From assembly GCA_018816555.1 (NCBI GenBank), contig JAHIVT010000123.1, forward strand, positions 1 to 44,846: a stretch of DNA of 44,846 nucleotides, written 5' to 3'. The notes below the pieces were generated by a model, which did not search any database, was not told the origin of the DNA, and worked only from the letters and a program-made list of their open reading frames with translations. A program made the position numbers and the translations under genes. Position 1 is the stretch's first letter. The number at the start of each line of letters is the position of its first letter. This stretch comes from Pseudomonadota bacterium. Its GTDB lineage: Bacteria; Desulfobacterota; Desulfobulbia; Desulfobulbales; SURF-16. Below, piece by piece: positions 37,585 through 43,100 of the stretch.

Positions 37585-38061
37585 TCATGGCGCCGCTGTT
37601 TTTTTCCTTTTCCGTTGAAAAAAAGCGCGCAGCACCGCAGCGCATTCCTCGCCGAGAATACCACCCGTCACCTCCAGGTTATGATTGAGGCGACCGTCCC
37701 GTCCCACCTGATAAAGCGACACCATGCCGCCGGCCTTGGGATCATCGGCGCCATACACCACCCGGCTGACCCGGGCATGCACCAGGGCACCGGCGCACAT
37801 GACACAGGGTTCAATGGTAACATACATGGTGGTGCCGGAGAGCCGGTAGTTGGCAAGGCTGCGCCCTGCCTGGCGCAGCACCACCATCTCCGCATGGGCC
37901 GTGGGATCGCTGTATTCAATGGGACGATTACCGTCACAGGCCAGCACCGTGCCCTGGGCATCCACCAGCAGCGCGCCTACGGGAACCTCACCCCGCCCCG
38001 CTGCAAGCTCAGCCTGCTCAAGTGCCAGCTGCATATAGTGAACATCGGGCAGGACCGCCAT
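37585..38061 (-). CDS. tadA: tRNA-specific adenosine deaminase (A34 to inosine)
   Basis: 158 residues from ATG 38061; a TTG one codon upstream is possible. The zinc-binding deaminase motifs are complete: H56-A-E58 (DPTAHAEMVVLRQAG) and P-C86-V-M-C89 (YVTIEPCVMCAGALVHARVS). The C-terminus GGILGEECAAVLRAFFQRKR is typical of TadA. It makes inosine at the wobble base of tRNA-Arg(ACG). The start codon overlaps the last base of the reductase stop codon upstream, so the two are cotranscribed. Confidence 0.95.
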   Translation of the reverse strand: MAVLPDVHYMQLALEQAELAAGRGEVPVGALLVDAQGTVLACDGNRPIEYSDPTAHAEMVVLRQAGRSLANYRLSGTTMYVTIEPCVMCAGALVHARVSRVVYGADDPKAGGMVSLYQVGRDGRLNHNLEVTGGILGEECAAVLRAFFQRKRKKTAAP

Positions 38062-38975
38062 CAATCAGCAGTTTCGTGTCTTTTCTGCTTGTTGGCAAAA
38101 TTTGCCGCATACCAGCCGGCCACACACCCTTCACCCACCGCCTTGGCCATCTGCAGGGGCGGTCCGGCAATGTCTCCGGCCGCATAGACCCCGGCCAGAT
38201 TGGTCTCCTGCCGCTTGTTCGTATCGATATAGGAGAATGTCTCCATGTCAAGCTGCACACCCAGGTTGGTGGCAAGCTCCATGGCGCCCTTGGCGCCCAA
38301 CTCAATGAACACCCCTTCCACCTCCAGGGATGAATCATCTTCCAGCAGCAGTTTCTCCACCGCGTTTTCCCCGATGATCTCCTTGACCCAGGTGCTGTGA
38401 ACCTTGACGCTGCTGGCCTTTAGTTTGCCAGCCAACTCCTCGGAAACCGCCAGTTCCTTGGCAACCAGATGCACCTCGGAGGCATATTTGAGCAAGGTCA
38501 ACGCCCCGTCCACCGCCGCGCTCTCATTACCCACCACCGCCACCTTCGCGTTGCGGAAAAAATTGGCGTCACAGTCAACGCAGTAACTGACGCCTTTACC
38601 GGTCAACTCTTTTTCGCCATTTACCTTAAGCTTGTTTTTGGAGGTGCCGGTGGCCAGAATAACCGTTCGTGCCAGATAGGTGGCGCTTTCCGAACGCAGC
38701 TCGAAATGATCATCACTCTGCTCAATGCCCAGCACGTCTTCCTCGGCGAACAAAACGCCGAAGCGGGAGGCCTGCGCCCGCCCGATGGCGAGCAATTCCT
38801 TTCCCTCGGTCACCCCGTCCACACACAGATAATTTTCCACATGGCCCCAGTAAATGGCACTTTTATGCGGACGTCCCAGCACCAGCACCGAGGCTTTTTT
38901 ACGCACGGCATGAACGGCCGCCTGCAGCCCGGCCGGTCCCGCACCGACCACAATGACATCAATCAGTTCAGACAT
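38061..38975 (-). CDS. Thioredoxin reductase-like FAD/NAD(P) oxidoreductase
   Basis: 304 residues. FAD-binding motif VVGAGPAGLQAAVHAV at the N-terminus, second dinucleotide fold around VAVVGNESAAVDGALTLLKY (GxGxxA-like but GNESA), and the C-terminal FAD motif GVYAAGDIAGPPLQMAKAVG. The redox pair is C132-V-D-C135 (GVSYCVDCDANFF), differing from the CATC of standard TrxB but placed alike. The NADPH-specific HRRxxxR motif is not visible (AKELAVSEEL in that place), so the electron donor may be NADH or ferredoxin-derived. It overlaps tadA. Confidence 0.88.
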   Translation of the reverse strand: MSELIDVIVVGAGPAGLQAAVHAVRKKASVLVLGRPHKSAIYWGHVENYLCVDGVTEGKELLAIGRAQASRFGVLFAEEDVLGIEQSDDHFELRSESATYLARTVILATGTSKNKLKVNGEKELTGKGVSYCVDCDANFFRNAKVAVVGNESAAVDGALTLLKYASEVHLVAKELAVSEELAGKLKASSVKVHSTWVKEIIGENAVEKLLLEDDSSLEVEGVFIELGAKGAMELATNLGVQLDMETFSYIDTNKRQETNLAGVYAAGDIAGPPLQMAKAVGEGCVAGWYAANFANKQKRHETAD

Positions 38976-39191: not shown

Positions 39192-39278
39192 AAAATACTT
39201 TTTACGTAACAGGCAATTTTGGTTATGTTAGGTGCATACATTAATTCCGCTTTCTCTGAATGTCAAAAGAACAATGCT

Positions 39279-42200
39279 ATGAAATTTCTCGCCGACCTGC
39301 ACATCCACTCACCTTTTTCCCGGGCCACCAGCAAGGAAAGCAATCTGGCGGGCCTCTTCGCCTGGGCCCGGATCAAGGGGATCCACCTCATCGGCACCGG
39401 CGATTTTAGCCATCCCGGCTGGTTCCAGCATCTGAAGGAAAATCTGGTCCCGGCCGAACCGGGCTTCTACCGGCTACGCGATGAAAACGTGCCGCCAGCC
39501 TTTAATCAGGCCGCTCCGGAGGCCATTGATGTGCGTTTTATCCTGACTGCCGAAATCAGCTCTATCTACAAACGCCATGACCGGGTACGCAAGGTCCACA
39601 ATATCCTCTTTGCCCCTGATTTCGCCGCGGTTGAGAAAATGAACCGCCGCCTGGCCGCCATCGGCAATATCGAGTCGGACGGCAGACCGATTCTCGGTCT
39701 CGATTCCCGCAATCTGCTCGAGATTGCTCTGGAAGAGATGCCGGAGGGTTTCCTGGTGCCGGCCCATATCTGGACCCCCTGGTTTTCCCTGTTCGGGTCC
39801 AAGTCCGGCTTTGATTCCATTGAGGAGTGTTTCGGCGACCTGTCCCACCACATCTTTGCCCTGGAAACCGGTCTCTCCTCCGACCCGGACATGAACCGCC
39901 TTGTTTCCGCCCTGGACCGCTTCACCCTTATCTCCAACTCGGACTGCCATTCTCCGGGAAAACTGGGCCGGGAACTCAACCGCTTTGACTGCGGCTTTGA
40001 TTTTTTCACCATGCGGGAGGCCCTGAAAGACCCGGGCAAAGGCTTTGCCGGCACCATGGAATTTTTCCCGGAAGAGGGCAAATATCATCTGGACGGCCAC
40101 CGCAAGTGCAACGTCAGCATGGAACCCCAGGAGACAAAAAAACACAGGGGCGTCTGCCCGGTGTGCGGCAAACCCCTTACCATCGGCGTCAGCCACCGGG
40201 TGCTCGATCTGGCCGATCGCCAAACCCCCAACTATCCGGCCAACGGACCGAGTTTTAAAAGCCTGATCCCCATGCCGGAAGTCATCGGCGAGATCATGGG
40301 CAGAGGGCCTGCCACCAAAGGGGTTCTTGAACAATACCAGAAGACGATCAACCGTTTCGGCTCCGAATTCAACATCTTTCTCCACACCCCGGTGGAAGAG
40401 ATCAGCCGCTTCTCGCCGCTGCTGGCCGAAGCCGTGGCCCGCATCAGATCAAACAAGGTAATCCGTCAGGGCGGCTTTGACGGCCAGTTCGGCGTTATCC
40501 GCACCTTTGCGGAAGGTGAGATCAACCGTCTGCGCGGCCAGGCAAGCCTTTTTGCCGACCCGCTACCGGCAAAAAAGAAAAAAAATGAAGAAAAAACCAC
40601 TCCCCCTGCAGAGATCCTCCCCCTGTTCCCTCCCCTGCCTCCAGCTGAAAATAAAACAAGGAACCTCAACCCCGAGCAGCAGATGGCCATTGCCAGCACG
40701 GCCGATCGCATCCTTGTTTCCGCAGGTCCGGGCACAGGTAAGACCCATACCCTTGTCTCCCGCCTGGTCCACCTGCTGCAGGTGGAAAAAACAGATGCCG
40801 ACCAAATCTTCGCCATCACCTTTACCAACCGAGCGGCAAACGAAATGCGCGAGCGGCTGGCAAGCCGGGCCGGCGAGCAGGCGAACCAGGTTTTTGTCGG
40901 CACCTTCCACGGCTTCTGCCTGGAATGGCTCAGGCAGGACACCCCAGAGCTGACAGTAATCGGCGAAGAGGAACGGGCCGTGCTGCTGAAAAAACTCTTC
41001 CCGGATAAACCTGCAAAAGAGCAGAAAAAATTAAGCAGCAGCATCACAGACTTCTACCTCGGGACCGAGGTGGACAACCAGGACAATCAAGAGGAGATCA
41101 ACCGCTACCTCAGTGAAGTTGCGCAGCTTAAGGCCATTGACCTGGAGGCCGTCATACCGGACTTCGTGCACAGACTGAAAACCGACCAGGGCTTCAGCAG
41201 CAGGGTTTACAGCCGGGTTGCCCATCTCTTTGTCGATGAGTTCCAGGACGTCAATTCCTCCCAGTACGAGCTTGTCACCCTGCTTGCAGGCTCGGCCCGG
41301 ATCTTTGCCATCGGTGATCCCAACCAGGCCGTCTACGGCTTCCGCGGCAGTGATCTCCATTTCTTCCTGCAGTTTGCCGCAGAGGCGGGCACCCAGTGCC
41401 TGGCCTTGACCCGTAATTACCGCTCAGGTTCGGCAATTCTTGAGGCGGCAACAGAGGTGATCGAACACAACCGGGTGAAAGGTGCTGCCCGCCTTGAGGC
41501 GCAGAACAGGGAAACCGGCGAGATTACCCTTTTCCCTGCCGCCTCCGGCAAGGCCGAAGCGGAGAACGTGGTCAAACAGATTGAAAAAATCCTGGGCGGT
41601 ATTTCAAGCTTTTCCATCAACTCGGGCCGCTCCCAGGGTGAGGAGGCAGGCTTCAGCTTCCAGGACATCGGAGTTCTCTACCGCCTGGGCCGCCAGGCCG
41701 ATGATCTGGTAGAGGCGCTCTCACGCCGGGGCATACCTTTTCAGATCATCGGCGCCCGCCCCTTTTTCATGGAAAAGGAACTGGGGGGGCTCTACTTCTG
41801 GATTCTTGCCGCCGCAGACAAGGCTACCTTCTCTGATTATCTTGGCCTGTGCCGGGCAGTGCCGGGCATCGGCCCGACAAGCGTTGCACTGCTAGAAAAC
41901 CGCATAGCACTGACCAGCCGAAATTTTTTCAGCGAGGCCCTGACCTTGCCCCTGCCGGTCAAAGCAACCCAGGCCATCCGCTCAGTGATGGAGGGTATCC
42001 GTTGTTTTCAGCAGGATGCGGATGCCGATCTGGCCGCTGCCTTACTCCCGGTTTTTGATTTTTTCGGGGCTGACCACAAATCCGCCCCGGCCAGACGATT
42101 TATCGAACTTGCCGGCGCCTTCGGAAGCCTCACGTCATTTGCCCTGCATCTGGCGGAAAACGCCCGGGCCACCATTTATGATGATCGGGCTGAGGCGGTG

Positions 42201-42491
42201 TCGCTCATGACCCTGCACGGGGCAAAAGGGCTTGAATTCCCTGTGGTCTTCATCACCGGACTGGATGAGGGGCTGCTGCCCTGCCGATTAATGGGCGGCG
42301 ATATGGAGGAGGAAAGGCGCCTCTTTTATGTGGGCATGACCCGGGCCAAAAGCAAACTAATTCTCTCCTACGTCAAACCGAACAAGCCCTCGCCCTTTCT
42401 CTTCGAGATCCCGGACCGGCTGATACAGATCATGGATGACGAAAGGGTAAAACGAAAAAAACCGGCAGCAAGGCAGCTAAAATTGTTTTAG
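39279..42491 (+). CDS. EndoQ-like PHP-domain endonuclease fused to a UvrD/Rep superfamily 1 helicase
   Basis: 1070 residues from ATG 39279, where homology begins (MKFLADLHIHSPFSRATSKE); an in-frame start 20 codons upstream is possible. Residues 1-425 resemble endonuclease Q, which cuts 5' of deaminated bases (uracil, hypoxanthine): PHP metal motifs DLHIHS, GTGDFSHP, HIWTPWFSLFGSKSGF, SNSDCHSP, and a zinc-finger-like KCNV ... CPVCGKPL. After a Lys/Pro linker, about residues 460-1070 are a complete helicase: Walker A GPGTGKT, FTNRAANEM, DEFQD, GDPNQAVYGFRG, NYRSG, TLHGAKGLEFPVV, YVGMTRAK. A role in unwinding and repairing deaminated DNA is inferred. Confidence 0.9.
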   Translation: MKFLADLHIHSPFSRATSKESNLAGLFAWARIKGIHLIGTGDFSHPGWFQHLKENLVPAEPGFYRLRDENVPPAFNQAAPEAIDVRFILTAEISSIYKRHDRVRKVHNILFAPDFAAVEKMNRRLAAIGNIESDGRPILGLDSRNLLEIALEEMPEGFLVPAHIWTPWFSLFGSKSGFDSIEECFGDLSHHIFALETGLSSDPDMNRLVSALDRFTLISNSDCHSPGKLGRELNRFDCGFDFFTMREALKDPGKGFAGTMEFFPEEGKYHLDGHRKCNVSMEPQETKKHRGVCPVCGKPLTIGVSHRVLDLADRQTPNYPANGPSFKSLIPMPEVIGEIMGRGPATKGVLEQYQKTINRFGSEFNIFLHTPVEEISRFSPLLAEAVARIRSNKVIRQGGFDGQFGVIRTFAEGEINRLRGQASLFADPLPAKKKKNEEKTTPPAEILPLFPPLPPAENKTRNLNPEQQMAIASTADRILVSAGPGTGKTHTLVSRLVHLLQVEKTDADQIFAITFTNRAANEMRERLASRAGEQANQVFVGTFHGFCLEWLRQDTPELTVIGEEERAVLLKKLFPDKPAKEQKKLSSSITDFYLGTEVDNQDNQEEINRYLSEVAQLKAIDLEAVIPDFVHRLKTDQGFSSRVYSRVAHLFVDEFQDVNSSQYELVTLLAGSARIFAIGDPNQAVYGFRGSDLHFFLQFAAEAGTQCLALTRNYRSGSAILEAATEVIEHNRVKGAARLEAQNRETGEITLFPAASGKAEAENVVKQIEKILGGISSFSINSGRSQGEEAGFSFQDIGVLYRLGRQADDLVEALSRRGIPFQIIGARPFFMEKELGGLYFWILAAADKATFSDYLGLCRAVPGIGPTSVALLENRIALTSRNFFSEALTLPLPVKATQAIRSVMEGIRCFQQDADADLAAALLPVFDFFGADHKSAPARRFIELAGAFGSLTSFALHLAENARATIYDDRAEAVSLMTLHGAKGLEFPVVFITGLDEGLLPCRLMGGDMEEERRLFYVGMTRAKSKLILSYVKPNKPSPFLFEIPDRLIQIMDDERVKRKKPAARQLKLF

Positions 42492-42617: not shown

Positions 42618-43100
42618 ATGCAACTATGCAAAATCAAAATCGGCAAGGCCACGGTGGGGCTGATCGGCCTTGAACAGGCCATACAGCAGGCGGTCAGCCG
42701 CAAGATGAGCGAGAATGAAGCCACCGACTTTCTTTTTGAAGTCGTCAACCGCGAAAACTATATCCCGGCCACGGCAAGGGTGCTCTACCGCCAGGCACTG
42801 CGCCGGGAATACCAGACTGCCCAGAGCGGCGGGGACCAGAGCCCCCAGCAGCTCACCATCAAGATCCTCGGTCCGGGCTGCGTAAGCTGCAACAAACTCA
42901 ACACCATGATCTTCGACATCATGCAACGGCTTGATATCGCGGCTGACATTGAACAGATCCATGACCTTGACGAGATCTGGCGGCACGGCGTCATCACCAC
43001 CCCGGCCCTGATCATCAACGGCAGCATCAAGTGCTCCGGCCGCATGCCACCTCCGGCAGAAGTGGAGCAGTGGCTGGTGGAGGAGGCGGAGCGTTTATAA
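42618..43100 (+). CDS. Thioredoxin-fold protein with an N-terminal helical extension
   Basis: 160 residues. From about residue 78 it is a small thioredoxin/glutaredoxin-like domain with C88-V-S-C91 (ILGPGCVSCNKLNTMIFDIM), TTPALIINGSIKCSG (cis-Pro motif) and a C-terminal helix, similar to the thioredoxin_3 or MTH895-type redox-active disulfide proteins. The first 75 residues (TVGLIGLEQAIQQAVSRKMS ... YIPATARVLYRQALRREY) are helical and of unknown function. It lies 126 bp after the helicase and 20 bp before the flavoenzyme; a role as its electron donor is possible but not shown. Confidence 0.82.
   Translation: MQLCKIKIGKATVGLIGLEQAIQQAVSRKMSENEATDFLFEVVNRENYIPATARVLYRQALRREYQTAQSGGDQSPQQLTIKILGPGCVSCNKLNTMIFDIMQRLDIAADIEQIHDLDEIWRHGVITTPALIINGSIKCSGRMPPPAEVEQWLVEEAERL

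Follow-up and report, generated by a model that had tools for sequence, protein, structure and literature searches.

The stretch of DNA analyzed here (44,846 nucleotides of contig JAHIVT010000123.1, assembly GCA_018816555.1, from a Pseudomonadota bacterium placed in the Desulfobacterota; referred to as the window) carries a gene in which an endonuclease Q (EndoQ)-like nuclease is joined to a UvrD-type superfamily 1 (SF1) helicase. At the level of sequence, comparison within the phylum showed that the fusion exists, that the active-site residues of either half are intact, that peptides resembling beta-clamp-binding motifs are conserved, and that the two genes are adjacent at three of 63 loci. 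We regard it as moderately probable that the fusion, which occurs in numerous sulfate reducers and related bacteria, is an alternative excision repair enzyme tethered to the sliding clamp.

The fusion gene and its distribution

The following features were assigned to the fusion gene and its product, here named the window protein:

39279..42491, + strand: gene of the EndoQ-UvrD fusion; 1070 aa when read from ATG 39279, in a frame that opens at TTG 39219
39279..40532, + strand: EndoQ domain, aa 1-418, based on the alignment with PfuEndoQ
40539..40553, + strand: predicted linker beta-clamp-binding-like peptide QASLF, aa 421-425
40665..42437, + strand: UvrD/PcrA-type SF1 helicase, about aa 463-1053
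42474..42488, + strand: predicted C-terminal beta-clamp-binding-like peptide QLKLF, aa 1066-1070, the last residues of the protein
EndoQ metal and catalytic residues (PfuEndoQ alignment): H8, H10, E92, H107, H163, D222, H224
EndoQ base pocket (PfuEndoQ alignment): G198 and S200 together with H163; also E196
Zinc ligands (PfuEndoQ alignment): H274, C277, C293, C296
Helicase motifs: Walker A GPGTGKT (K488); DEFQD (D653, E654); motif VI from aa 1011

The stop-bounded open reading frame 39219..42491 (+) begins with TTG. Starting at the in-frame ATG 39279 places the sequence DLHIHS at the same N-terminal spacing as in PfuEndoQ. Residues 5-382 of PfuEndoQ (5zb8) aligned with residues 5-409 of the window protein with an E-value of 1.5e-57, and the structure 7k30 gave 8e-57. 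The likeness to solved EndoQ is unambiguous in these alignments, even though the score for TIGR00375 (a hypoth_equivalog family) stayed below the cut-off (179.5 versus 326.6 bits). Within the second half both helicase Pfam domains scored above the gathering threshold: PF00580 at residues 483-721 (E 2e-56) and PF13361 in two stretches, the last of which covers residues 987-1053 (E 1e-40). The closest solved helicase was PcrA (1pjr, E 7e-64). These matches bear out the preliminary description of this DNA, which had recognized an EndoQ-like PHP nuclease and a UvrD-type helicase in one chain of 1070 residues. The NCBIfam equivalog models of PcrA, UvrD and Rep reached 294.9, 263.6 and 259.0 bits against cut-offs of 911.2, 1144.45 and 951.45 bits, respectively. 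Since all scores lie below the cut-offs, the window protein is a relative of PcrA, UvrD, Rep and TIGR00375 and a plain member of none of them.

Its counterpart was fused as well in two named loci from metagenome-assembled genomes (MAGs), a 'Proteobacteria' MAG and a Desulfobulbaceae MAG, with 87% and 73% identity to the window protein, the second ending at a contig edge. Furthermore, 36 of 60 additional regions of the phylum sample were fused, so that the continuous frame is no accident of assembly.

A protein search with the EndoQ part detected EndoQ in 253 of the 395 genomes of this phylum sample, including the genome of the window. The spread of EndoQ was therefore understated in the preliminary description, which placed it in archaea and a few bacteria. 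Beyond the phylum, a match to TIGR00375 was present in 3 of 14 control genomes. Of the best 150 rows of the search, 94 came from frames of 850 aa or more and the other 56 from frames below 600 aa. The 63 loci examined consist of the window, the two named MAG loci and the 60 regions, which were picked by hand from these 150 rows for their frame lengths and family variety and not at random; the weaker matches of the 253 lie outside this selection. In total, 39 loci were fused, three were adjacent (L057, L076, L081) and 21 carried EndoQ alone. In the regions examined, all frames of 850 aa or more were fused and none of those below 600 aa.

The adjacent loci differed in their arrangement. Locus L057 (G186:C3) carried both parts in one frame with a single stop codon between them and was counted as adjacent; this could mean that the locus is a pseudogene, that the gene was split recently or that the stop is recoded. 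The EndoQ and helicase parts of L076 and L081 were located in different reading frames. The frames overlap by 8 and 20 bases; since they were defined from stop to stop, the genes abut but do not necessarily overlap. A different arrangement was seen in L033 (G261:C19), where a frame of 1267 aa runs after QMKLF into a thioredoxin-like sequence, apparently a triple read-through fusion; this extension resembles the separate gene located downstream of the fusion in the window (42618-43100). The Desulfovibrio-like genome G426 carried two EndoQs, one in a frame of 438 aa (G426:C126) and a distant one with 30% identity in a frame of 1053 aa (G426:C27).

When the label 'fused' was mapped onto the 63-row EndoQ tree, it had to change a minimum of 10 times, compared with a mean of 19.5 for shuffled labels. 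The helicase tree, calculated by a quick method without bootstrap, with L002 left out and the PcrA-like L001 of the window's own genome as the sole outgroup, grouped L057 and the whole set of 39 fused helicases into a single clade with an SH-aLRT of 98, to which L076 and L081 did not belong. The simplest story would be that the gene pair was fused once and later split or trimmed several times, based on counts that do not separate gain from loss.

Active sites and clamp-binding-like peptides

The alignment comprised 63 EndoQ domains with PfuEndoQ added as the reference. Residue numbers were counted on the PfuEndoQ chain; PMC4357722 numbers D193 and H195 one lower. Residues D6, H8, H10, E76, H84, H139, E167, G169, S171, D193 and H195 of PfuEndoQ were identical in all 63 domains, and E76, H84, H139, G169, S171, E167, D193 and H195 correspond to E92, H107, H163, G198, S200, E196, D222 and H224 of the window protein. 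Each of the exchanges E76A, H84A and H139A abolishes the activity of PfuEndoQ (PMC8307549), and E167 has been named as possibly important (PMC4357722). Loss of the catalytic PHP residues on alignment, which the preliminary description had named as evidence that would tell against it, was not encountered, as catalytic and pocket residues were intact in 63/63 domains. Some of the checked positions differed: S174 of PfuEndoQ was replaced by Pro and E112 by Asp in all 63. The initially proposed Cys-rich finger was recovered in part. Four zinc ligands are present, but they form a His-Cys-Cys-Cys set (H274, C277, C293 and C296 in the window protein) which was found in 63/63 domains, whereas PfuEndoQ has four Cys.

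For the helicase part, the SF1 motifs Q, I, Ia, Ib and II-VI were all located in the window protein, in agreement with the complete motif set noticed before. In 42 helicase segments (39 fused and three adjacent) the glycines, the lysine and the last threonine of Walker A as well as the D, E, Q and D of DExQD were invariant. The T-R of motif VI was found in all 41 segments reaching that far; L010 is cut by the contig end. Thus, judged by their motifs, both halves of the fusion look catalytically competent.

The pocket residues also bear on the lesion that would be recognized. PfuEndoQ was most active on a duplex with an abasic analogue, hypoxanthine and uracil being poorer substrates (PMC11354406), and 232 of the 253 EndoQ-carrying genomes in the phylum sample have a uracil-DNA glycosylase (UDG) as well. 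Both points would suit an endonuclease-helicase for apurinic/apyrimidinic (AP) sites or a broad range of lesions, with uracil and hypoxanthine as minor substrates. However, H139, G169 and S171 of PfuEndoQ exclude T and A, with G169 and S171 acting as steric-gate residues (PMC8307549), and all three are intact in the 63 domains. A pure AP enzyme would hardly need such residues, and we therefore consider this explanation improbable.

The beta-clamp-binding pentapeptide has the consensus Q-[L/M/I]-x-L-[F/L]. A strict pattern, Q[LMI]xL[FL], and a loose pattern, Qxx[LMIF][FLWY], were applied, with the C-terminus defined as the last 14 residues. The window protein ends with RQLKLF, which corresponds to the strict form; the sequence GQASLF in the linker just behind the EndoQ domain corresponds to the loose form only. 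At the C-terminus the strict motif was present in 30 of 37 fused proteins versus none of 288 neighbouring frames (Fisher p 5e-36, relatedness ignored), and the loose motif in 34/37 versus 3/288 (p 4e-39, relatedness likewise ignored). The control frames are neighbours from the same loci which were called mechanically and are not all true genes. Left out of this count were L010, because of the contig end, and L033, because of its thioredoxin run-on, although QMKLF is kept at the end of its helicase. The loose motif was also found in 32 of 39 fused linkers compared with 5.7% of internal windows of equal size. Between families the 20 residues ahead of the C-terminal motif were approximately 11% identical, whereas positions 4 and 5 of the motif were 94% and 83% identical; these values refer to rows chosen by the motif, so that the Q is conserved by construction.

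The helicases encoded next to EndoQ had comparable ends (loose motif 3/3, strict 2/3). For 12 genomes in which EndoQ stands alone, the search returned 30 UvrD-type loci, of which 16 (L110-L125) were inspected. The motif was present in L110 (G104) and L112 (G133) and missing in the other 14. Both of these are nearest, with 47% identity, to the EndoQ-adjacent helicase L076 and belong to the same family, f37. In the window's genome, the C-terminal motif was not found in five other UvrD_C loci, with a near miss (QLELI) in L001. A type of helicase with a clamp-like tail thus seems to travel with EndoQ, either fused, adjacent or, as similarity and motif suggest, probably unlinked. Neither the clamp-like peptides nor the adjacent and unlinked arrangements had been noticed in the preliminary description.

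Archaeal EndoQ carries a C-terminal PIP box, and PCNA binds and stimulates the enzyme (PMC4858679), with a dissociation constant of 55 nM for TkoEndoQ and PCNA. Sequences matching the beta-clamp-binding consensus have already been noted at the C-termini of bacterial EndoQ in the same report. Added here are the predicted clamp-like tail of the helicase itself and the EndoQ peptide kept inside the fusion linker. By their motif, and by analogy to archaeal EndoQ and PCNA, these peptides would be expected to bind the clamp.

Uracil-DNA glycosylase and genomic context

A UDG match (PF03167) was present in 353 of 395 genomes of the phylum sample, including that of the window (G000). The specific ung family (TIGR00628) was absent from all 24 genomes tested, again including G000; its absence in family f43 therefore adds little. 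The inventory covered PF03167, TIGR00628 and EndoV; further uracil enzymes of other kinds, such as HhH-type glycosylases or ExoIII with dU activity, may be present. In G000 the match to EndoV (G000:C72:3999-4292) spans only profile positions 101-198 in a frame of 128 aa, which could mean that EndoV is incomplete or broken here, or that the contig is a contaminant. UDG domains located in frames of 611-741 aa in G099, G154, G226, G268, G308, G326 and G344 suggest that other UDG fusions exist in the phylum.

Neither a PF03167 nor an EndoV match was found in the first 16 genomes of f43. Members of this family are here called Desulfovibrio-like: in comparisons of DsrA with solved chains, G076 was nearest to 2v4j, G277 nearest to 3or2/3or1, and G040 tied between 2v4j and 2xsj, all of which we take to be Desulfovibrio enzymes. 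In a wider f43 sample of 149 genomes EndoQ was present in 142, and in 120 of the 121 high-quality genomes. As judged by frame length only, 128 of the 142 have EndoQ in a frame that reaches 850 aa or more. PF03167 matched 47/149 genomes, mostly with weak scores, and 38/121 high-quality genomes, leaving 83/121 without a match. The sole high-quality f43 genome lacking EndoQ, G474, has a PF03167 match, and no high-quality genome of the family lacked both. UDG was found in 5 of 7 EndoQ-negative versus 42 of 142 EndoQ-positive f43 genomes, a weak difference (p 0.03) that ignores relatedness. Many f43 genomes thus have EndoQ and no recognizable UDG, a suggestive pattern that stems from few independent events.

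According to Pfam, the neighbours of the fusion gene in the window encode a DNA polymerase III gamma/tau-like protein, a cytidine-deaminase-fold protein that is presumably TadA-like, the Phe- and Thr-tRNA synthetases, a thioredoxin-reductase-like protein and a thioredoxin-like protein. Clustering of the neighbours (flanks of 62 loci and the window) yielded a largest cluster in 8/63 loci and a next one in four, and no partner gene was inferred. The divergent thioredoxin-reductase-like gene (38061-38975) is located just upstream of the fusion and recurs in L009, L010 and L032; it marks four loci of the window's close kin and was not found in the other clustered loci. Additionally, in L074, L083, L085 and L090, which belong to four different families, EndoQ is immediately preceded by frames of 256-293 aa that are related to one another.

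No match was obtained at an E-value of 1e-5 among plasmids (72,556) or phages (50,697), and a two-pattern scan of viral contigs yielded 14 stretches, none of which is a relative. Together with the housekeeping neighbours and the lack of a common cluster this argues for a chromosomal repair gene. A mobile or defence origin was rejected on the same grounds: neither mobile elements nor a recurrent defence-gene context appeared in the flank clustering and Pfam annotation, the neighbours not having been scanned with the PADLOC library. An anti-phage nuclease-helicase comparable to Gabija still has some appeal, as nuclease and UvrD-like helicase form a defence-like pairing, Gabija GajB was among the solved helicases matched, and an antiviral role of Bacillus EndoQ has been suggested (PMC8307549). 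Against this stand the near-universal presence of EndoQ in high-quality f43 genomes, the neighbourhood without a cluster beyond eight loci, the empty plasmid, phage and viral searches, and clamp-like peptides which fit host replication. We regard a function in defence as very improbable.

Proposed repair route and its standing

For the excision repair enzyme that we favour, the following order of steps is proposed. One or two short peptides would hold the fusion on the beta clamp. The EndoQ half would find a deaminated base (uracil or hypoxanthine) or an AP site and cut the backbone 5' to it, so that a 3'-OH is left. As a 3'-to-5' motor, the UvrD half would load at the nick on the intact strand and run toward and past the lesion. 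Because 3'-to-5' movement on the intact strand corresponds to the 5'-to-3' sense of the nicked strand, it would peel off the 5' end in which the damaged base is located. The 3'-OH could then be extended by a polymerase bound to the same clamp, a flap or 5' nuclease would remove the peeled strand, and ligase would do the sealing. In this scheme the substrate specificity is adopted from EndoQ and the polarity from UvrD, PcrA and Rep. Nicking at deaminated bases followed by unwinding, as proposed in the preliminary description for this one polypeptide, is plausible, and the clamp-like peptides and the split forms add to its support.

EndoQ nicks 5' of the lesion and leaves a 3'-OH and a 5'-phosphate, and in the scheme of its discoverers one pathway ends in removal by helicase activity (PMC4357722). 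According to a later review (PMC8438529), EndoQ is followed by a helicase along with FEN1, polymerase and ligase.

Alternatively, the chain could hold two independent enzymes that are delivered together to the clamp, with unwinding uncoupled from nicking; the main task of the helicase may then be the removal of RNA polymerase and further obstacles, as for Rep, UvrD or PcrA. The linker past the clamp peptide is indeed poorly conserved (mean between-family identity about 0.11 over 20 residues), EndoQ occurs without a neighbouring helicase in 21/63 loci and with an adjacent gene in three, and the partner is probably unlinked in G104 and G133. However, the single clade of fused helicases, resolved with one outgroup, and the adjacent pairs speak for a partnership that was selected. 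The low equivalog scores and the separate UvrD-type helicases of the genome indicate that the fused helicase is not the plain PcrA or Rep of the cell. We therefore consider uncoupled action rather unlikely.

Several observations weigh against the clamp-tethered excision enzyme. Stand-alone EndoQ in 21 of 63 loci implies that the helicase is dispensable in some lineages. The linker peptide is mostly of the loose form, with the strict motif in only 5/39 linkers versus 0.9% of equal-sized internal windows, and the share of motifs at the ends of unfused EndoQs is low (loose 10/24, strict 7/24). In six loci of the Desulfovibrio-like family, for which the case from UDG is strongest, the linker motif was missing in all six and the C-terminal motif in three, so that clamp tethering would not be universal; L072 also has no linker motif. 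An AlphaFold2 model based on an alignment of the window protein, L009 and L010 had a mean predicted local distance difference test score (pLDDT) of 39.9 and was discarded. The window's genome has a UDG match and a partial EndoV frame; with the UDG match it possesses a candidate uracil enzyme besides the fusion. Finally, EndoQ was found in 21/42 UDG-negative versus 232/353 UDG-positive genomes of the phylum sample, a tendency in the opposite direction (p 0.06; 22 of the 42 UDG-negative genomes were identified by subtraction). Replacement of UDG as a general rule was rejected, as EndoQ is not enriched in UDG-negative genomes across the phylum.

With known EndoQ (PfuEndoQ 5zb8 and 7k30, TkoEndoQ, BpuEndoQ, TIGR00375) the window protein shares the region 5-409 and the metal, pocket and PHP residues. 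It differs in the attached helicase, in a His instead of a Cys as first zinc ligand and in an insert of approximately 16 residues ahead of the metal Glu. Its predicted clamp-like peptide directly follows the EndoQ domain, at the place taken in the archaeal protein by the terminal PIP box. The SF1A helicases UvrD, PcrA and Rep (1pjr, 3lfu, 2is1, 1uaa) share the SF1 motifs and the N- and C-terminal UvrD Pfam domains. The window protein differs in its N-terminal nuclease and in its predicted clamp-like tail, which is missing from the five other UvrD_C loci of the genome, and it scores far below their equivalog cut-offs. Methyl-independent mismatch repair, where a nick by clamp-bound MutL is followed by unwinding by UvrD (PMC8744996), is similar by analogy only. 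It depends on sensing by MutS and MutL, whereas the fusion is predicted to make a direct, lesion-specific incision with nuclease and helicase in one chain. The archaeal EndoQ-PCNA 'uracilosome' (PMC4858679) tethers EndoQ to its clamp through a terminal box that contains Q, a feature which the fusion is predicted to share; in contrast, the motif of the fusion is of the bacterial clamp type and not a PIP box, and its helicase is covalently attached.

An EndoQ-helicase fusion was not found in searches of the open-licence literature, as judged by titles and the opening lines of abstracts, although a description elsewhere or an automatic database annotation is possible. It does not appear in the available parts of PMC4357722, PMC4858679, PMC6202378, PMC7776575, PMC8307549, PMC8438529, PMC11354406, PMC3820547, PMC8744996 and PMC12448304. 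Homologues of EndoQ in Desulfovibrio are mentioned in PMC4357722, PMC4858679 and PMC8438529.

Published schemes for the steps after EndoQ incision involve either a polymerase and a flap nuclease or EndoV and a helicase. The natural fusion favours a helicase-driven, clamp-based route. It suggests that the factor following EndoQ is a UvrD-type helicase and that the sliding clamp serves as platform. Both the helicase step and the clamp platform become accessible to single-protein tests in bacteria with genetics. Furthermore, EndoQ is common in a bacterial phylum and is no archaeal speciality. For many Desulfovibrio relatives with no detected UDG the fusion is a candidate uracil-repair enzyme. We put forward only tentatively, as possible but somewhat doubtful, that the phylum carries a clamp-docked excision machine in one protein, with a peptide after each enzyme, and that it replaces UDG in many Desulfovibrio-like bacteria. 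If true, lesion sensing, 5' incision, strand removal and polymerase access would sit in one chain.

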